Shown piece after piece: positions 1 to 12,466 of a stretch of DNA of 64,000 bases. The position numbers were made by a program, and so were the translations under genes. A model generated the notes under the pieces. That model was not told where the DNA came from and searched no databases. It saw only the letters and a program-made list of their open reading frames with translations. Source of the DNA: Chelatococcus asaccharovorans. Lineage in GTDB: Bacteria; Pseudomonadota; Alphaproteobacteria; Rhizobiales; Beijerinckiaceae. Within the stretch, counting starts at the first letter, position 1, and each line of letters begins with the position of its first letter. The stretch lies in assembly GCF_003201475.1 (NCBI RefSeq), contig NZ_QJJK01000004.1, forward strand, positions 70,631 to 134,630, written 5' to 3'.

Positions 1-714
1 GCTATCGATTTCGTACCATTTGAGGTCGTCGCACCGGGCTGCCGCCAGCCGCAGCCCATGCCGTTCGATGAGGCGCGCGAACAACTCCTCCGTATAGGAT
101 TTGACCGCGCCCGCACCGACGATCTCGTCGAGATAGGGAACGATCTTCGAACGCAGGTCCGTGCCCGACAATCGAATGAGATTCATGGTCTTGAAGAGCT
201 GCGGCGACCCGCTGGCGAGATCGGCGGCCGTTTGCTTCATGCGGAACTCGGCGATGTAGCCGTTATCGGCAAGGACGACAGCAGAGCCTTCCATCATGGA
301 ATCGAACGGCGCGACAGCCGTGACGTTCTGCGCGTCGCCTAGGTTGAGGCAGCGCAGCGCGTCGAGCTCGAAAAGCACGTCGCCCTCAAGCAGATAGGTG
401 TCGCCCTGCAGCAGCGCCTCTCGCGCCAGCCAAAGCGAATAGGCGCTGCCTGTTCTGTCGAAGACGCTGGATTCGACATAGGTGATGTCCAGATTGCCGA
501 AGCGGAGGCCGCATGCATACTGGATAGCATCCTTGCGATAGCCGACGACGATGGTCACGTCCTCGACTCCGACGGCTTCGAGATTGCGCAGCGCGTTGAA
601 GAGGATTGGCGTCCCATGCACCGCCACGAGGGACTTGGGCATGAGATCGGTATGGGGGCGAAGACGGGAGCCAAGCCCTGCGGCCAGAATGACGGCCTTC
701 TTTATCTGCGTCAT
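1..714 (-). CDS. Nucleotidyltransferase, probable phosphonate/sugar cytidylyltransferase (partial, 3' end outside window)
   Basis: This NTP_transferase-fold protein runs off the left edge after 238 codons, so its C-terminus is unknown. The N-terminus shows the nucleotide-binding signature AAGLGSRLRP followed by LMPKSL (residues 11-27), and an acidic stretch LLEGDVLFELDAL lies in the middle. Enzymes of this fold activate small phosphorylated molecules as CMP, UDP or similar derivatives. It starts 40 bp after an aminotransferase gene and is third in a row with PEP mutase. By comparison with PntC-type cytidylyltransferases, the likely substrate is a phosphonate such as 2-aminoethylphosphonate (inference). 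The ATG at 714 has GGAG about 10 nt upstream. A sugar-phosphate nucleotidyltransferase is the main alternative. Confidence 0.8.
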   Translation of the reverse strand, partial: MTQIKKAVILAAGLGSRLRPHTDLMPKSLVAVHGTPILFNALRNLEAVGVEDVTIVVGYRKDAIQYACGLRFGNLDITYVESSVFDRTGSAYSLWLAREALLQGDTYLLEGDVLFELDALRCLNLGDAQNVTAVAPFDSMMEGSAVVLADNGYIAEFRMKQTAADLASGSPQLFKTMNLIRLSGTDLRSKIVPYLDEIVGAGAVKSYTEELFARLIERHGLRLAAARCDDLKWYEIDS

Positions 715-754
715 GATCAATCTCCGGTTCGAGGGATGGAAATGAGGTGGCGGC

Positions 755-1951
755 CTAACGGCTTTTCAGGGCGTTGAGCGTGCCGACCAGCTTTTCCAGG
801 GCTGGGATCAGAAGCTCGGGCAGCGCGCCGAAGGACAAGCGCAACCCGACCGGATCGCCGAAGGTCGAGCCGGCCACGGAGGCGACGCCGGTTTCCTCGA
901 GGAGGAGGCGCGCGATATCGTCGACCGTCTTGACCGGACCTCCGACCGGCAGCCCGGCAAGCAACTCGGTCAGGTCGAGATAGAAGAAGAACGAGCCATC
1001 CGCCCGCGGTACGGGCACATCGGGGAGCCGCGCCAGGATCGCTAGCCCGTCAGTCCGCGCTTTGGTCAGGCGCGCGAACATATGCTTCTCGAACACGCCG
1101 TCCGTGGCCGAGAGGTGGTGCAGGATTGCGTGCTGGGCGATGACATTGGCATTGGACGTCGTGTGGCTCTGCAGTTTCTTCGCCGCCGAGACGATCTCGG
1201 GTGGAGCGGCGAAGTAACCAAGGCGCCAGCCGGTGATCGCGAGTTCCTTGGAAAAGGCATTGACCAGGATCGTTCGCGAGCGGACACTCGGATGCGCGGT
1301 AACGATCGATTCATGCGCCTCGCTGGTGTAGACGAAGCTCGAATAGCATTCGTCCGAGATGATCCAGAGCTGATCGTTTATGGCGAGGTCGCCGATCGCC
1401 TGCAGGGTCGCCCGGTCATAAACGGCACCCGTCGGGTTGTTGGGCGAGTTGAGGATGATTGCTTTCGTCTTCGGCGTCACCGCGGCTCGGATGCTGTCGA
1501 TCGTCGGGACGTAGCTCGGTCCCTTGACGTCGACGAAAACGGGCTTGGCGCCGGCGAGCAGGACCTGCGACGGGAAGGTCGGCCAGCAAGGCCGGAAGAT
1601 GATCACTTCGTCGCCGGGGTTGAAGACGGCCAAGGCCGCATCGAGGAGCGCCTGCTTGGCGCCGTTGGTGATGACGATATTCTCGGCGGTCCATTTCACA
1701 GGTGTGCTCGCCGTCAATTTCGTGGCCACCGCTTCGCGCAGCGGCATGATCCCGATGGAATCGGTATAGCGGTTGACGCCGGCGTCGATTGCGGCAATGG
1801 CGCCGTCGCGTACCGTCTTCGGCGGTGCGATGATCACCTCTCCGGCCGCAAGGTCGATGATCTCTTTTCCGGCTGCGGCTGCAACTTTTGCGGCCTCTCT
1901 GGCGGCGGCGGTTCCCGATCCCGAAAGCAAAGACATCCGTTGCGCAAGCAT
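755..1951 (-). CDS. Class I/II PLP-dependent aminotransferase, probably phosphonate pathway
   Basis: This 398-residue aminotransferase has the aspartate-aminotransferase fold. Visible motifs are SPNNPTG (residues 169-175), the cofactor-binding ISDECY (198-203), and FSKELAITGWRLGY, in which Lys235 should carry PLP. The reading frame stays open much further upstream but overlaps the PEP mutase gene there. The ATG at 1951 has a strong AAGGAGG site just upstream and gives the usual family length. It sits between PEP mutase and a nucleotidyltransferase, so transamination of phosphonopyruvate (to phosphonoalanine) or of phosphonoacetaldehyde (to 2-aminoethylphosphonate) is the likely role. The sequence alone cannot choose between them. 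No phosphonopyruvate decarboxylase gene is visible in the window. Confidence 0.85.
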   Translation of the reverse strand: MLAQRMSLLSGSGTAAAREAAKVAAAAGKEIIDLAAGEVIIAPPKTVRDGAIAAIDAGVNRYTDSIGIMPLREAVATKLTASTPVKWTAENIVITNGAKQALLDAALAVFNPGDEVIIFRPCWPTFPSQVLLAGAKPVFVDVKGPSYVPTIDSIRAAVTPKTKAIILNSPNNPTGAVYDRATLQAIGDLAINDQLWIISDECYSSFVYTSEAHESIVTAHPSVRSRTILVNAFSKELAITGWRLGYFAAPPEIVSAAKKLQSHTTSNANVIAQHAILHHLSATDGVFEKHMFARLTKARTDGLAILARLPDVPVPRADGSFFFYLDLTELLAGLPVGGPVKTVDDIARLLLEETGVASVAGSTFGDPVGLRLSFGALPELLIPALEKLVGTLNALKSR

Positions 1952-2021
1952 GTGCGCCTCCTTTGATCGGACTGTTGGTGGTGTGGCCTTTGGCGGCTGT
2001 TTCAGCGCCGGCCGACGCGAT

Positions 2022-2942
2022 TCATGCGTGCTTGGGCAGGTAGCGATCTTCCGCTGCCGCGAGCTCGTCATAGTGGAGAAGGCCAAACACCTCCTCCAGC
2101 GTCGCCACCTCCGGCTCGACACCGGCGATGCCTTCCTCGGCCATGATGCGGTCGCAGGTGGTGCGCATGGCAGAAATCGCCGCACGCATATTGTGATTGG
2201 CCCAGATCACGGTGGAGATTTGCGCGTCGCGGTAGGCCGATACTGGAGTTTTATAGTATTTTGTCGGCACGATCACGATCGGCAGCTTGCCCGCCCACCG
2301 ACGGGCAAAGTCGAGAATCTCGGTCGCCTCGCTTTTGCGGGAATGGATCAGGATGGCGTCGGCACCGGCATCCGCATAGGCGTCGGCGCGATGCAATGCC
2401 TCGTCGAGGCCATAGCCGGCGATCAGCGCTTCGATCCTTGCGACCAGCACGAAATCGGGTCCGGTCGTGTCCTTGACCGCCTTCAGACGGCCCGAAAACT
2501 CATCGATTTCGGCGAGTGGGTGGCGATTTCCGACGAAGGAATTCATCTTGGGAAAGCCCTTGTCCTCGAGGCACACACCGGAGGCGCCGCGCTGCTGCAG
2601 TTTCCCAGCCAGCAAACGGGCATTGTTGAAATTGCCGAAGCCGGAATCTCCATCGACCAATATCGGCAGGTCGCTGGCGTCCGCCATACGCTCGACCACA
2701 TCGACGACCTGGGTCCAGGAAGCCTCGTTGGCATCGCGATAGCCAAGGCTCGACGAGATCGACAGGCCAGACGCCCAAAGCCCCTTGAAGCCGGCCTGTC
2801 GGGCGATTGCCGCCGAGAGGCCGTCATGGGCTTCCATCAGATAGGACAGGCCTTTCGATACGATCAGATCGCGCAAGGTTTCGCGCGCCTGGTTGGGCGG
2901 TAACGCAATATTCATGGATTTGGTTTGTAGCATACGATTCAT
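2022..2942 (-). CDS. pepM: Phosphoenolpyruvate mutase
   Basis: This enzyme rearranges PEP to phosphonopyruvate, forming the C-P bond that starts nearly all phosphonate biosynthesis. It belongs to the isocitrate lyase/PEP mutase superfamily. It carries the signature EDKGFPKMNS (residues 126-135), which matches the EDK-X5-NS motif separating true mutases from the hydrolases and lyases of the family. Further conserved elements are WASGLS (56-61), LGYRDANEAS with Asp70, ILVDGDSGFGN with Asp97 and Asp99 for the metal and catalysis, and VPTKYYKTP near the C-terminus. The ATG at 2942 is chosen because GAAGGGA lies 8 nt upstream; an ATG at 2948 sits too close to it. The result is 306 residues, normal for the family. 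It heads a leftward operon with the aminotransferase and nucleotidyltransferase. Confidence 0.95.
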   Translation of the reverse strand: MNRMLQTKSMNIALPPNQARETLRDLIVSKGLSYLMEAHDGLSAAIARQAGFKGLWASGLSISSSLGYRDANEASWTQVVDVVERMADASDLPILVDGDSGFGNFNNARLLAGKLQQRGASGVCLEDKGFPKMNSFVGNRHPLAEIDEFSGRLKAVKDTTGPDFVLVARIEALIAGYGLDEALHRADAYADAGADAILIHSRKSEATEILDFARRWAGKLPIVIVPTKYYKTPVSAYRDAQISTVIWANHNMRAAISAMRTTCDRIMAEEGIAGVEPEVATLEEVFGLLHYDELAAAEDRYLPKHA

Positions 2943-3333: not shown

Positions 3334-4050
3334 GTGACAGAAGAGGAGGGCGGGCAGGCCGATAGGGGCCTTAGTTCCGCGATCTACCAGAGGCTGAGGA
3401 ATCTCATCATCAAGCACGAGATTCCCGCCGGTCAACGTCTGGACACGCGCCGCTTGGCTGAGGCCTTCGCGGTCAGTTCCGGACCGGTACGAGATGCCAT
3501 CAACCGGCTGACCGGGGAGGCCCTCGTGCAGCATGTCGCGTCACGGGGCTATTTCGTCCGGCCGATTTCCGAGGTCGACCTCATCGAAGCCCATGAAATG
3601 ATCTTCATGGTGCTGCGCCATGCCGTGCTCTTCCCCAGGAGACCATTCGAAACGGTCGGGCTGCAGATGGCCGCAGCACAGCGCGTAGCCGGGGTCCTTC
3701 CGGATGCCGCGGAAGAAATCGTGAAACAATACACTTTCTTTAAAGAGACCCTCTTCGAGCGGATCGCCGGATTGAGCGGCAATGCGACGGCGGTCGCATT
3801 CACACGACATTGTCTCGACAGGACGCATTATGTCCGGACCCGCGATCTGCTCGATCCCCTCCATCTTGAGGCCGTGGGCGGATTGATGGAAGAACTCTTG
3901 CAGAATCTCACCATTGGCGAACGCGAAAGGGCGCTGCTGGTGCTGGAGACGTTGCTCGACCGCAAGCTGCCGCGACTGTCGGTCCTGGTGGCTCAAATCG
4001 AAAACCAGATCCTGGCGCAGGACCTGTTGTTTGGTGACCTCGATGATTGA
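3334..4050 (+). CDS. GntR-family transcriptional regulator (FadR/FCD-like)
   Basis: This 238-residue regulator has an N-terminal winged helix-turn-helix of the GntR type: YQRLRNLIIKHEIPAGQRLD, then RRLAEAFAVSSGPVRDAINRL, then the wing ASRGYFV (roughly residues 18-80). A helical C-terminal effector domain follows. The start is a GTG; the upstream ribosome site is only moderate (GAGGGCG). The gene diverges from pepM across an AT-rich spacer with an inverted repeat, so control of the phosphonate operon is the natural guess. The effector domain is shorter and less acidic than in well-studied FCD proteins, and I cannot name the ligand. Confidence 0.85.
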   Translation: MTEEEGGQADRGLSSAIYQRLRNLIIKHEIPAGQRLDTRRLAEAFAVSSGPVRDAINRLTGEALVQHVASRGYFVRPISEVDLIEAHEMIFMVLRHAVLFPRRPFETVGLQMAAAQRVAGVLPDAAEEIVKQYTFFKETLFERIAGLSGNATAVAFTRHCLDRTHYVRTRDLLDPLHLEAVGGLMEELLQNLTIGERERALLVLETLLDRKLPRLSVLVAQIENQILAQDLLFGDLDD

Positions 4051-5989: not shown

Positions 5990-8875
5990 ATGTTGTCTGG
6001 CAACGGCACCCGTGCGTCCGCGTTTTGCTGGACGTTGCTTAGCCCCCTCAAAGATATCGCCAGACGTGCGGCGATCAGCGGGCTGGCGGTCAGCGTCGCG
6101 CTCGGCACGATGCCGGTGCAGGCCCAGACGGCAGGGCCCTCCCCCGCCGCGACAGCGCCCACGGCACCAGCCTCCAGCCCGGCTCCGTCCCAGGCGGCGC
6201 CCGGTGTGCCGCCGATGGGGCCGCAGATCCGGGCGCCGCGGCCCCTGGGGCCGCCGGTTTTGCCAGGCCCAGCCTCTCAGAGCCCGCAACCGACAGCGGC
6301 ACAGCCCTCACCAACACCATCGCCCGCGGAGATGGCCACCGGTCAGAGGGCGCCGGGGACGCCGGTTCCCTCGGGGGCCGGTGGGGTGACCCCCGATCCG
6401 GTGAAGAGCGAACCGCCTGCCATGGCGACGCCCAAGTCGGGGGCCAAGGCGGAGGCCAAATCCGAGGCCAAATCCGAAGCCAAACCGGATGCGGCCAAGG
6501 CCGAGACGGACAAGGCGAACACCGACAAGGCTGATACGGACAAGAAGGACGCGGAGAAGGCCGAGACCGAGAAAGCAGGCGGCCCGACGGTCCTGGCTGA
6601 GCAGACACCCTCGGCCATCACGATCGGTGACTTCGACAAGAAAGCGCCGGAAGACCCGGAAGCGCCCTTCAACGGCAGCTTCACCCAGCGCATTCCGCTG
6701 GAGGTGCCGGGGTTCCGCGGCCTCGAGCCGAAGCTCAGCCTCGTCTATGATTCGAGCCAGGGCCTGCGCGCCGGCGGCATGACGGCCGGCCTCCTCGGGG
6801 TCGGCTGGGACCTCGGCGGCCTCTCCGACATTGTGCGGGTGTCGCGCGTCAATGGCGCACCGCGTTTCAACACCGACGACACCTGGCTGCTCGATGGCGC
6901 CGAGCTTGTGCCCTGCGCCCAGGCCCCGTCCAGCCCGAGTTGCAGCTATGGCGGCAACTTTACGACCCGGGTCGAGAGCTACAAGCATATTCTCTTCAAC
7001 GAAGGTGAGAACTCCTGGACCATCAAGGCCAGGGACGGCACCCGCTATATCTATCAGTCGTCGCTCTGGTTTCAGGGCGTGCCGGAGTCGCCCGAGGCCG
7101 GGCATTACCGCTACATGTTGCAGCGGATCGTCGACTGGCGGGACAACGAGGTGGTGTTCGGCTACGAATGCCCCTCCTTCGTCGTCTGCTATCCGATCCG
7201 GACCGAATACAACGGCACCCTGATCAAGTATTTCTGGCAGAGCCAGGGCGACCAGCAGAAGACCCAGCTCGCGGCCGGAACGGTCATTGCCGTGGCCGAT
7301 CGCCAGTTGCGCAGCGTCTTCGTCACGAACGACAACGTGACGATCCGCGCCTACGGGCTCGACTACGAAGTAAGCCCGGCGACAGGCCTGTCACGCCTCA
7401 TCCGGGTGCAGCAATACGGCAAGGACGCCGTGTTCGACAACGGCGCGGTGGTCGGCGGCACCGCGCTGCCGGCGATCGAGATCAGCTACACCAATACGGG
7501 GGTGTCATTTACTCTGGTTCCCGGCATCGCAGGCGGCAAATACATCGGCGACTTCAACGGCGACGGCCTTAGCGATGTTTTCGCCGCAGCTCCAGAAGGG
7601 AACACACAGGTCCCACCTGAATGCATACCTTATCCTGCCTACACTTACCTATCGACGGGGAGTGGCTACGATGCGGGGCAAGCGCTGAACCTCTCCTATC
7701 CCGCCCTGAACTGCTATGTCGATGTCGGTAACGACCGATGGGCGGTCGGCGACTTCGACGGCGATGGGCGCTCGGACCTCGTTCGCAGCTATCAGGTGGT
7801 AGACTATCCCACCAACCCCAACGATCCGAACGCGCCAAAGATCACAGGCTTCGGCTTAACCTTCTATCGCTCGACGTCTTCGGGCTGGGTCGCGTCCAGC
7901 CTGCTCGACCCACTTTCATCTGTACCTGTTTATACGGGTGGGGAGATAGCTGCAGCCGATTTCGATGGCGACGGACGCGATGAACTGGCGGCATTTGGCA
8001 CAACTGCGGGCGGTGGAGGCCTATCCGGACGTTTTGTCTGGAACGGCACCACATTGGTGCTGGACCCGAACCTCGCGCTGCCGCCTATCAGCATAGGAGG
8101 CGTCCCTGCCCAGCCTCCGCTTTCGCGGATTAGTGACTTCAACGGCGATGGCAAAGCCGATTCCATCGTCTTCAGCCAGGGCCCGACCGTCGGCGACACG
8201 TCGTATGAGATTTGGTTATCCAATGGGATGGGGTTCATTTCCCAGGGGATCCAGACCTTTTCAGGCTTGCCCTTCTTCACCCTCCAGCAGGGCATTCAGA
8301 GCGGCGATTTCAACGGCGACGGCAAGGCTGACGTGCTGCTCTTTGCAGCCCGCGGTGATGGCCAGTGGGATGTCAATGTGGGGCTCTCGACCGGGCGTTC
8401 ACTCGATCGCCAGATCTGGGCGGCGCCACAATGGGTCGCTTATACGCCTGGCACTGAAGGCGGTATTGCGATCGGCGATCTGGATGGTGACGGGCGAAGT
8501 GATGTTATCATCGCCGCTGCCACGGAAGCACGCTTGCTGCTCTCGCGCGGCACGAGCTTCGCCATCAGCTCCGCGCCGATCGCAGGCCTTGTGAGTACAC
8601 CGGGAGATGTGAACGGAGATGGCAAGGCCGATATCGCTAGCCTTCTCGGCCTCTATCTCTCGCAAGGCGGCATCCCCGACCTCCTCTCTCAATACAAGAA
8701 CGTCTTCGGCGGCTACACCCACGTAGAAGGGCACGAGCTCGACGCCCCTCCTCGACACCCGCTATCTCTGGGACAACCAGCCCTACACGGTCTATCCCTC
8801 GACCGGCAACCTGACCCAGGTCGACCAGTGGCGCAACACCGACAACACGCTCGCCGTCACGGCGATGACCTATGA
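5990..8875 (+). CDS. Exported SpvB/TcdB-N plus FG-GAP repeat protein (first half of a split RHS protein)
   Basis: The product starts with a signal peptide (hydrophobic core [13 protein letters not shown], cleavage near VQAQ), then a Pro/Ala-rich linker and a Lys/Ala/Glu/Asp-rich low-complexity stretch to about residue 200. Residues about 207-300 form a SpvB/TcdB N-terminal domain ([33 protein letters not shown]). Seven FG-GAP/VCBS calcium-loop motifs (D[FLV][ND]GDG) follow at roughly residues 522, 588, 657, 717, 773, 830 and 873. The last 50 or so residues (after about 8726) are out of frame, because the same DNA reads as YD-repeat sequence in the next frame. With the following gene it forms one RHS/Tc-type toxin-delivery protein split by a frameshift and probably an internal deletion. 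Confidence 0.8.
8713..8864 (+). other. Frameshift/deletion junction in the RHS gene
   Basis: The frame of the upstream gene makes sense up to about [10 protein letters not shown] (8726) and then becomes Pro/His/Arg-rich. In the frame of the downstream RHS gene, a stop at 8724-8726 is followed by YD-like sequence ([16 protein letters not shown], then [19 protein letters not shown]) running straight into it. The long middle region usual between SpvB/FG-GAP and YD parts is absent. A deletion that also shifted frame explains both facts. Confidence 0.65.
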
Positions 8876-11783
8876 TCAATGGGGCAATCTGACGGCCCAG
8901 GTCGATCCGGTCGGCAACCGCTTTGAGTACACCTACGACGGCACCTACCACATCTTCCCCATCAAAACGCGCAACCCGCTCTACTTCGCGCCGGTCATTG
9001 ATACCCGGCAGGAAACCACGGCGACCTACGACACCCTCTGCGGTCTGCCGGCGACCACCACCGATATCGACAGCCTCGTCACCACCTATGGCTATGATGC
9101 GCTCTGCCGGCCGACCTCGGTGGTCAAGCCCGGCGGCGACTATACGCTGACCACCTATACCGAAATCGGCAATCCGCAGACCCAGGCGGTCACCACCCTG
9201 ACCCCGCCAGCCACCGGCAGCCAGCAGGTCTGGACGTCGCGCTTCTTCGACGGCATGGGCCGCACCTATGCCACCACCATGGACGGCCTCATCGTCGAAG
9301 GGCTCGCCTTCAACCCGCGCGGCCTCGTGCGCCAGCGGGAGGCGCCGCATTATTCAGGCCAGCCAGCCTATCCCACGAACTTGACCTATGACGCGCTCGA
9401 TCGCCTGGTGCTGACCACCAATCCGGACAACAGCACGGTCACGACGAGCTACCAGGCCTCGCCCGATGCCTTCGACCAGACGACGGTGGTCGATGAGCTC
9501 GGCCGCACGACCATCACCCACCACGATCCTTACGGCAACACGGTCTTCCTCGATCGCTTCAATGCCGGCGTCCGTAACCGCATGTCGATGCAGTATGACG
9601 CGGTCGACCGGCTGTTTCGCGTCACCGACCAGCCCGGCAATCTCTGGGTCTATGGCTACAACTCCCTGTCGAACCGGGTGTCGGCGCTCGATCCCAACCT
9701 CGGCCAGTGGTGGTATGCCTATGACCTCGCCGGCAATCTCACCTGGGTCACCGATGCCAAGGGCCAGCACACCACCTACACCTATGACGGCCTGAAGCGC
9801 GTCAAGACGAAGACCCTGCTCGCCACCACGCCGCAGGCGACGACGACCACCTCGACCTATGACGAGACCCGGCCGGGCTATGCCAATGGCGGCAAGCTCA
9901 CCACGGTCACTGACGCCGCCGGCACCATCCAGTACGACTATGACGCCAACGGCCGGCCGGTGAAGACGAGCTGGCAGGTCGACGGCACCACCTATGCCTT
10001 GACAGCCACGCTCGATATCGGCGGCTATGTCCGGGGCAAGACCTATCCGGACGGCGACCAGATCGGCACCCCGGGCCAGCCCTGGACCTATGACATCTAC
10101 GGCTCGCTCAAGACCATCCCGGGTCTCGTCAGCACTATCGACTACAACGCCCGCCGCCAGACCACCGCCATCACCTATGCCAATGGGGTCTCGACCAGCT
10201 TCGTCTATAACGACGCCCGCGGCTGGCTGAACAGCTACACCACCACGAAGGGCCCCAGCGTCTATCTCGGCGGCCATTACAGCCGCGCCGCCACCGGCCG
10301 CATCAATAGCGTCACCGCCTCGCCGGGCTCCCCGGCCGACGGCTGGCAATATGGCTATGACGACCTCGACCAGCTGCTGACGGCGACCCATCTCGACTTC
10401 CCCGGGCTGCTCTCGCAAAACTTCACCTACGACGCCGCCTTCAACATGACGTCGAACTCGCAGCTCGGCACCTACACCTACCCGGCACCGGGCCAGCCGC
10501 GCCCGCATACGCCGACCCAGGTCGGGGCCTCCGCCTATAGCTACGACGCCAACGGCAACCTCTTGGCCGGCTCCAACCGCAGCTACAGCTGGGACGGCGA
10601 CAACCGCCCGGCGACGGTCACCATGGTCACCGGCATCACGACGGCCATGACTTATGGGCCGGACGGCTCACGCCTGAAGAAGGTCGCCAATACCGGGCCC
10701 AACCGCACGCCGCAGACGACGCTCTATCTCGGCCCGGAGATCGAGCGCGGCCCCGACGGCGTCTGGCAGAAATACCCCTATCCCGACATCAACAAGCGCG
10801 GCACGGCGGCGACCTTCCTGCATCGCGACCACCTCGCCACGGTGCGCTCGATCACCGACGCCGCCGGCGCCGAGGTGCTGCACCGCTATTACCGGCCCTA
10901 CGGCCAGATCCCGATCACCACCTCGACCTTCAAGGAGGCCAAGGCCTTCATCGGCGAGCGCCAGGACAGCGAGACCGGCCTCCTCTATCTCAACGCCCGC
11001 TTCTACGATCCTGCCCTCGGGCGCTTCATCTCGCCGGATTGGTATCTCCCCACCGACCCCGGCGTCGGCACCAACCGCTACGCCTATGCCTTCAATGATC
11101 CGATCAATAAATCCGATCCGAATGGGCATATCTGGCAGGCCCCGGCTCGGGGCGCGCTGATCGGGGCGGCCTCTTCGTACGCGGTGCAAGAGGCTGAGAT
11201 TGCCTTGGGATTACGCACCGAAATTAACTACAATGCTATAGCTTATGAGGCTCTTATCGGAGCGGTCACCTTGGGGCTTGCCGGTCGCGAGAAGGAGGTT
11301 GATCTCGCGGTGCATATGTTCAGCCGGGCACTTGGCAGGGCACTGTTTAGCGAGAGTAGGACTAGGTTTGATGAAAACCGCGCTATCGGAAAAGCTGGAG
11401 AGCAGCTGGTAGGGCAGGATCTCAAAGGGAGAGGTTATGAGGTCTTTGCGCAAGTTGGACTTCGAAGCAAGGATGCGTTCGCGATTTTCGATTTTGTTGC
11501 TGTCAAGGATGATGTGATCACAGCGATCGAGGTCAAAACGGGAGACGCCATATTGTCCAAAGGTCAGGAAGCAATTAGAGATGCCTTTAAGGCCGGGTAT
11601 GACGTAGTGGTCGCTCCGACATCTAAAAATGCGCCGACTTTAAGAGGGCGTTCTGTGGGAGCTGTGCAAGAAAATAGGCTAAGCAGAGAAGACGTTCTTG
11701 GTAAGGCGCGAGGAGTAGATCCATTCGAGGCAGCTCAGGACGAAACCAATCCAGATGACGAAAATTCGGCGGAATTTCAGTAG
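8865..11783 (+). CDS. RHS/YD-repeat protein with C-terminal PD-(D/E)XK-like nuclease toxin domain
   Basis: This 972-residue frame starts within YD repeats ([23 protein letters not shown] and many more). They end in the RHS core signature [20 protein letters not shown]...GRFISPD and the toxin junction DPNG near residue 750. The variable tip beyond it is encoded by clearly AT-richer DNA from about 11170. It contains [16 protein letters not shown] (Glu845), [10 protein letters not shown] (Asp875) and AIEVKTG (Glu889-Lys891), the order expected of a PD-(D/E)XK nuclease fold. RHS proteins deliver such tips to competing cells. The first ATG (8865) has no good ribosome site and lies 46 codons inside the YD region, so it may not be translated alone. 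Confidence 0.75.
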
Positions 11784-11794
11784 TAGAGTGATAA

Positions 11795-12466
11795 ATGTCT
11801 ACAGAAGCGATTATCCCCACGACGGTCGATGCAGAGGTTTTCCGGGCGGCGGAAGACTTTCTTACTCTCGATCAATTCAAGTGTCGGGCAAGCAATGGCG
11901 CTCTGAATGCGGTCCGCTCTATCGATAATGAGACGGTTTTTCTTATTCACATTGCCCGTAAGAATTATTTCCGCGAGTGGAAATACGAACTGTCATGCTC
12001 CATTAATTGGAAAATTATCTACAGTAATATTTCCATATTGGGAGGCAATTTCAACGAAAGGCAGTGGAAAAATAGGGCTCTCATTTCTACTGGGACAAGC
12101 AAGGCGTCGGTATATAGAGATTGGGGGGATAATCGTTTCTCGTTCACTAAAATTGATGACGCAAGTTATATAATTGGAAATATGCGAGAGTTTTACAATA
12201 AAATCTGCGTGCCTTTTTTTGAAAAATGGAATTCATTTGAGATTTCCAAGAATGAGTTCTACAATCACTCCAAATCGGCTGAAGATATTGTTCTTCTGCG
12301 TAGAGATTTATCGTTAATCGCAATATCTATAGCTATAATTAAACGTGATGTTGATATTGATGAATTGATAGAAAATCACAGATTATATCTTGCCAAGATA
12401 AATGAGAGCTCAGTTGATGTTATTGACGACTTCGTTGGAAGACTTCGGGACGCTGGACTGTTGTGA
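11795..12466 (+). CDS. Hypothetical AT-rich protein, candidate immunity protein to the RHS nuclease tip
   Basis: This 223-residue protein is unfamiliar to me. It starts 11 bp after the RHS stop and is rich in Ile, Asn, Lys and Phe, in strong contrast to the GC-rich genes on either side. It has no signal peptide or membrane segment, so it should act in the cytoplasm, where an immunity protein must bind a nuclease. An aromatic/acidic middle and a helical Ile/Asp/Glu-rich C-terminus (about residues 160-223) are visible. Position and base composition are the whole case for immunity; no motif confirms it. The ribosome site is weak, which suggests coupling to the toxin gene. Confidence 0.6.
   Translation: MSTEAIIPTTVDAEVFRAAEDFLTLDQFKCRASNGALNAVRSIDNETVFLIHIARKNYFREWKYELSCSINWKIIYSNISILGGNFNERQWKNRALISTGTSKASVYRDWGDNRFSFTKIDDASYIIGNMREFYNKICVPFFEKWNSFEISKNEFYNHSKSAEDIVLLRRDLSLIAISIAIIKRDVDIDELIENHRLYLAKINESSVDVIDDFVGRLRDAGLL

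Follow-up and report, generated by a model that had tools for sequence, protein, structure and literature searches.

The putative biosynthetic operon at the window edge

We analysed a 64,000-nucleotide stretch of Chelatococcus asaccharovorans DNA, hereafter the window (contig C4, positions 70631–134630, of a 7.25 Mb genome), whose left edge carries a putative phosphonate biosynthesis operon. Three adjoining genes lie there on the minus strand: pepM, encoding phosphoenolpyruvate (PEP) mutase (2022..2915, with the stop at 2022 and the longest frame starting up to 2999), a class I aminotransferase gene (755..1951), and a LicC/PntC-like nucleotidyltransferase gene (1..714), which is cut by the window edge and ends about 98 bases past it. 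The initial annotation of the window had described this trio as a PEP mutase, an aminotransferase, and an NTP_transferase-fold enzyme closely spaced on one strand, which was confirmed (gaps of 70 and 40 bases). Because the same gene order was found again in many rhizobial loci, with 50–83% protein identity to the window genes, the trio is not a chance arrangement. A GntR-like regulator gene (3334..4050, plus strand), of the same sequence family as GntR-annotated genes in plasmid records, diverges from pepM.

The annotation had also supposed that the window edge cuts the operon, and the operon indeed continues leftward. The next gene, overlapping the nucleotidyltransferase gene by 4 bases, encodes a CDP-alcohol transferase (PF01066; C4 69912–70535) of the phosphatidylserine-synthase type, in place of the sugar-nucleotide genes that the annotation had named as evidence against a phosphonate operon. 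Further operon genes extend to C4 63211 and encode a pyridoxal phosphate (PLP) enzyme, a GNAT-like protein, a methyltransferase, a DoeB-like deacylase, a DgaE-like PLP enzyme, a small unassigned frame, and a second methyltransferase. The first of these PLP enzymes is EhuR-like and is devoid of the N-terminal part of the regulator. No exporter was recognised among the operon genes scanned for families.

The window PepM scored 352.1 bits against the PEP mutase family TIGR02320 (curated cut-off 319.55) and 209.6 bits against the phosphonopyruvate hydrolase family TIGR02321, below the cut-off of 374.4. Consistently, phmmer gave 363 bits to the Mytilus PEP mutase (PDB ID: 1m1b) versus 203 bits to the Variovorax phosphonopyruvate hydrolase, and a tree of 39 rows, containing some very long branches, placed the window PepM and its rhizobial relatives together with the Mytilus enzyme (100/99), separately from the hydrolases. 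These data bear out the earlier assignment as a true PEP mutase. The active-site motif is EDKGFPKMNS and includes the FPK-x-NS segment, whose Lys and Asn residues have active-site roles in PEP mutase. For a wider comparison, we analysed 87 loci, comprising the best 80 of 244 obtained by a PepM-alignment scan of genome contigs, six plasmid loci, and the window's region. In 82 PepM sequences of these loci, K123 and N125 were conserved at 97% or more. In 35 of the 82, the EDK-x5-NS motif had another residue in place of its first Lys (Ser in 27 and Thr in eight), and mining for this motif would therefore miss part of the PEP mutase family.

The window aminotransferase belongs to PF00155 (E-value 3.6e-55), and its best solved relatives are aspartate aminotransferases. 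It is proposed to convert phosphonopyruvate to phosphonoalanine. The nucleotidyltransferase scored above the cut-offs of PF00483 and PF12804 and contains GLGSR-x8-PK, which fits the LicC/PntC cytidylyltransferase motif GxG(T/S)R-x4-8-PK (PMC6697681) with a spacing of eight; a slightly wider pattern (spacing 4–9) was present in 68 of 69 nucleotidyltransferase sequences. When its profile was compared with solved structures, LicC (PDB ID: 1jyk) ranked first with 83 bits, and PntC was matched over nearly its full length with 61.5 bits. The enzyme is related to the PntC-type cytidylyltransferases that the initial annotation had invoked, but its profile is nearer to LicC. We propose that it acts as a CTP:phosphonoalanine cytidylyltransferase.

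The CDP-alcohol transferase scored 33.8 bits against PF01066 (cut-off 22). The motif of the CDP-alcohol phosphatidyltransferase family has four aspartates, and D47, D50, D73, and D77 were conserved at 97% or more in 59 sequences; in the transferase next to the window, 13 residues separate AR from the following Gly, a longer spacing than in the family consensus. Phosphatidylserine synthase was the sole match of the profile among solved structures. The predicted model of a relative in locus L117 (79% identical; predicted local distance difference test score 95.5) likewise resembled phosphatidylserine synthase (template-modelling score 0.72), with other structures far weaker. From this fold, the best guess for the acceptor is a serine-like alcohol.

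A search of the window's genome gave no match to the phosphonopyruvate decarboxylase family, and an ordinary aminoethylphosphonate (AEP) surface pathway was therefore rejected for this genome. A route through phosphonoalanine is favoured by the same result together with the linked catabolic genes of Pal type described below. With the CDP-alcohol transferase lying next in the operon, this supports the earlier suggestion, on the evidence of gene content, that the operon probably makes a CMP-activated phosphonate via phosphonoalanine.

Linked candidate degradation genes and recurrence of the locus

On the same contig, 16–26 kb to the left of pepM, we found genes for an ATP-binding cassette (ABC) importer, a phosphodiesterase, a PalB-like transaminase, a candidate phosphonopyruvate hydrolase, and a LysR-type regulator. 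The hydrolase candidate (C4 46347–47219) gave 341 bits to the Variovorax enzyme (PDB ID: 2dua), contains Thr at the position of the PEP mutase Asn, and branched with hydrolases in the tree. Its gene overlaps by 4 bases that of the PalB-like transaminase, to which the window aminotransferase is 33% identical. The phosphodiesterase is of type I. The importer includes a solute-binding protein, its ATPase has UgpC as its best family but scores under the UgpC cut-off, and a second EhuR-like PLP enzyme is encoded with it. PalB and PalA convert phosphonoalanine to pyruvate and phosphate (PMC10574752). One region thus appears to encode enzymes that make and break the same proposed building block, phosphonoalanine, and the best explanation is a single make-and-reclaim locus at C4 about 46.3–74.7 kb, with the window edge falling inside it. 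The half for uptake and degradation lay beyond the view of the initial annotation and alters the likely purpose of the operon.

Two other gene sets were observed in this genome. Near the hydrolase gene, a DoeB-like deacylase gene adjoins one for an enzyme resembling D-cysteate sulfo-lyase/D-cysteine desulfhydrase (C4 42213–44302). A second phosphonopyruvate hydrolase, with 409 bits and above the cut-off, is encoded on another contig (G000:C13 145332–146186).

To describe linkage of the two halves, we used 50 cluster genomes, the hosts of 50 of the 80 loci, hand-picked to cover the list, and counted a hydrolase at 350 bits or more. A hydrolase was present in 27 of the 50, and seven of the 27 exceeded the curated cut-off. 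It lay on the pepM contig in 24 of the 27, at a distance of 12.4–60.8 kb (median 16.6 kb), against an expectation of 0.14 at such short distances. At least 13 plasmid records also carried both halves, 4–33 kb apart, among the matches listed (40 of 61, 60 of 108, and 34 of 34). Eight regions, chosen for a layout comparison because both halves lie on one contig, shared one compact layout with biosynthesis genes and importer in 8/8, hydrolase in 8/8, LysR-type regulator in 7/8, transaminase in 7/8, and phosphodiesterase in 5/8. That synthesis of a surface phosphonate and the scavenging of phosphonoalanine from the environment are unrelated neighbours joined only by mobile elements is highly improbable: many copies are plasmid-borne and some genomes have one half only, but the same layout recurs across eight different genomes, the contig linkage far exceeds expectation, and tailoring genes switch together with importers, as shown below. 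At least ten plasmid records, such as those of a Bradyrhizobium from Acmispon and of Phyllobacterium zundukense, contained a hydrolase that was itself their best match to PEP mutase. Within this search of plasmid records alone, they are possible non-producing consumers.

The biosynthetic cluster recurs widely. A tblastn search with the nucleotidyltransferase against 72,556 plasmids returned 61 records (17 Sinorhizobium, 12 Agrobacterium, 11 Rhizobium, 8 Mesorhizobium, and 13 others), 45 of them at 60–80% identity, and relatives of the cluster were found on Ti plasmids (record titles include pTi) as well as on plasmids from nodule isolates. The nucleotidyltransferase was present in 70 of the 87 loci, and 63 of those 70 also had the CDP-alcohol transferase. 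Among 99 relatives of the window's genome, three of them congeneric, the best nucleotidyltransferase match reached only an E-value of 6e-25 and 31% identity, and horizontal gain of the cluster in this genome fits this result.

Other pepM arrangements were also observed. Nine Bradyrhizobium loci of the 87 instead carry an O-methyltransferase and a decarboxylase-type thiamine pyrophosphate (TPP) enzyme, which follow pepM in L052 (9947–18069) and the eight similar loci; several of them add an EamA transporter, an aldehyde dehydrogenase, and a periplasmic binding protein. A decarboxylase-type TPP enzyme also occurs in one nucleotidyltransferase locus, L058. A distinct pepM cluster on the A. vitis plasmid pAvCG678a (L168 15124–26924) contains genes for a citrate synthase-family enzyme, citryl-CoA lyase, and a tripartite transporter, as well as a second PEP mutase-family gene, and is another candidate for making and breaking a phosphonate.

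Tailoring genes, importers, and the nodule setting

Next, we compared the variable tailoring genes with the importers beside them. Clusters with the EhuR-like PLP enzyme had a sugar/Ugp-type importer, and those without it had an oligopeptide-type importer. This agreement held in all 38 clusters in which both the tailoring enzyme and the importer class were readable (20 and 18, with none discordant). The pattern had been noticed in the first 24 of them (10 and 14), from a count in which 61 of 85 loci showed no importer of either class within the stretch examined. When the DNA was extended for 11 clusters after the pattern had been seen, an importer appeared in 10, and all 10 were of the predicted class; the binding protein of L092 was known before this prediction test, and L100 lies outside the 38. 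The importer class changes 10 times on the PepM tree, and eight of eight independent pairs on supported branches agreed (sign test, 0.0078). L072 and L074, which have identical PepM rows, carry different tailoring and importer modules. In L054/G112, a second, oligopeptide-type importer lies beside the Pal genes, and the cluster was scored by the nearer importer.

We then examined the association with nodulation. NodC scored above cut-off in 37 of the 50 cluster genomes versus 6 of 297 genomes drawn evenly from the order to which G138 belongs, that genome included (Fisher's exact test, 2e-32). A strictly nodulation-bound system was rejected, since NodC was missing in 13 of the 50 and the window's genome had neither NodC nor NifH above cut-off. 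Eleven of the 87 loci, among them the window's, have the divergent GntR-like regulator beside pepM. Among the 50 genomes, NodC was absent from seven of the eight with this regulator versus six of the 42 without it (p = 1.2e-4).

Expression data for apparently related genes come from the symbiosis island of Mesorhizobium loti R7A, which contains pepM (msi327), aatA (msi326), and asnB (msi323). In nodules, these were expressed at 827, 2456 (aatA::lacZ), and 862 units, compared with 855 units for nifH, and they gave 8–22 units in a nifA2 mutant and <20 units in broth, indicating NifA2-dependent expression (PMC3538637). From the gene names and order, R7A pepM and aatA apparently belong to the same operon family as the genes of the window; several M. 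loti loci carry pepM together with genes for the aminotransferase, nucleotidyltransferase, CDP-alcohol transferase, methyltransferase, and AsnB.

Candidate promoter sites close to the −24/−12 consensus preceded pepM in 13 of the 87 loci, all in two Mesorhizobium groups, versus 32 of 1384 other genes, one of the 32 being a mis-called pepM frame. No such candidate precedes the window's pepM, and the data do not support direct NifA promoters throughout the family. Because the sites stand only in those two Mesorhizobium groups, it is only there that direct NifA control deserves a second look.

A proposed phosphonoalanine-based compound and its alternatives

From the gene families, their order, linkage, and recurrence, and the co-variation of tailoring genes with importers, we infer substrates, acceptor, direction of transport, and role as follows. 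PepM would convert PEP to phosphonopyruvate, which the aminotransferase would trap as phosphonoalanine, as PnaA does. The nucleotidyltransferase would activate phosphonoalanine as a CMP-phosphonate, as PntC does with AEP, and the CDP-alcohol transferase would pass the phosphonoalanyl group to a hydroxyl acceptor, perhaps a serine-like alcohol. The variable PLP enzymes, methyltransferases, acyltransferase, and deacylase would tailor the remainder. The compound would then be secreted and taken up again by the ABC importer, the phosphodiesterase would open its ester, and the PalB-like transaminase and phosphonopyruvate hydrolase would return pyruvate and phosphate. Such a compound may serve plant-associated bacteria as a private nutrient in the manner of an opine or rhizopine. 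We put the probability that the locus makes and reclaims a phosphonoalanine-based compound of this kind at roughly 55%. More tentatively, and somewhat short of an even chance, symbiosis and Ti plasmids or islands may each specify a phosphonoalanine ester of their own together with an importer to match, in many cases with a degradation route, to the profit of the producer's kin.

The chemistry would be a new combination of known kinds of enzymes. In its putative biological role, the locus is most like the rhizopine system (mos/moc) of Sinorhizobium meliloti. As there, genes for synthesis and for uptake and catabolism are linked, albeit not in all clusters. Nodule expression of the R7A genes depends on NifA2, with direct NifA control doubted by the authors of that study. 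In contrast, the known rhizopine derives from inositol (PMC3538637), whereas the compound here would be a phosphonate, and the present locus also occurs in genomes without NodC. The coupling of PepM to a transaminase that makes phosphonoalanine resembles the Streptomyces phosphonoalamide pathway (PnaD and PnaA; PMC11867202), with PnaA likened by its described reaction; there, however, ATP-grasp ligases make peptides, whereas in the present operon the next genes encode a nucleotidyltransferase and a CDP-alcohol transferase. In PntC phosphonyl tailoring, a cytidylyl activation step comes after PEP mutase (PMC6697681), and the related enzyme here is predicted to have such activity. The characterised PntC pathways, in contrast, activate AEP formed via phosphonopyruvate decarboxylase. 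The adjoining LysR-type regulator, transaminase, and hydrolase genes match PalAB degradation in Variovorax Pal2 (pathway, PMC10574752), except that here they lie near a biosynthetic operon for the proposed substrate.

Several observations weigh against a make-and-reclaim system. The reclaim half is not universal, since 16 of the 40 nucleotidyltransferase-bearing clusters among the 50 are in genomes in which no hydrolase was found (24 have one); among the clusters without it are one on a Ti plasmid and a group of the M. loti type that has AsnB, like R7A. The hydrolase candidate of the contig itself scored 368.3 against TIGR02321, just below cut-off. The order draw by itself favours the pairing: a hydrolase occurred in all six genomes with a free-standing pepM versus 4 of 291 others (Fisher's exact test, 2e-10; 7e-9 without G138) and in none of seven with a long fused pepM, on a split into free-standing and fused forms made after the list had been seen and with the best 6–7 candidates scored per genome; four of the six were, however, already among the 50, with both genes on one contig, and in the other two the genes lie on different contigs. 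In an even draw of 385 genomes of the class, scored in the same way, one of three with a full-length free-standing pepM had a hydrolase, and this was the window's own genome, which moreover lacks NodC and NifH as noted above. On the plant, R7A mutants in pepM, aatA, and asnB showed full effectiveness; the authors of that study detected no NifA promoter, considered direct NifA control highly unlikely, and name no product (PMC3538637). Searched for descriptions of the system, the open-access literature yielded the expression data from R7A alone and no reported product.

The strongest alternative, which we nevertheless regard as unlikely, is a phosphonolipid or phosphonoglycan pathway, in which the CDP-alcohol transferase would attach phosphonoalanine to diacylglycerol or to a glycan of the cell surface, with the Ugp-like importer and Pal genes only recycling breakdown products. 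Members of the transferase's superfamily make lipids, its profile retrieved only phosphatidylserine synthases among solved structures, phosphonoalanine is stated to be a phosphonolipid component (PMC10574752), and the importer ATPase is nearest, below cut-off, to UgpC. A lipid head group alone, however, does not explain tailoring genes that vary by cluster and switch with the importer class, and several clusters have oligopeptide-type importers. Still less probable is that the cluster makes a phosphonate antibiotic directed at neighbours, from which the Pal genes would protect the producer. Phosphonoalanine peptides made by PepM and a transaminase are antibacterial (PMC11867202), the clusters are often plasmid-borne and variable, and a major facilitator superfamily transporter gene stands in line with one plasmid cluster. 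Against this stand the importers with binding proteins beside many clusters, the plasmid records with a hydrolase and no better PEP mutase match, and the result that no ATP-grasp family match was obtained among the proteins of the locus scanned.

If the locus does make and reclaim an opine-like phosphonate, it would represent a second rhizopine-like system of different chemistry in many lineages, and a widespread new class of opine-like C–P compounds. Many nitrogen-fixing symbionts and some Ti plasmids would then harbour a hidden phosphonate economy. This would explain the very high spending of R7A, in which aatA::lacZ exceeds nifH, on genes dispensable for nitrogen fixation, and it would become possible to test who benefits from nodules, a long-standing question.

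Elsewhere in the window, two long open reading frames (ORFs) at 5990–12466 resemble RHS/YD-repeat proteins by eye, the second with a nuclease-like tail, and the small ORF that follows could, on the same inspection, be an immunity gene.

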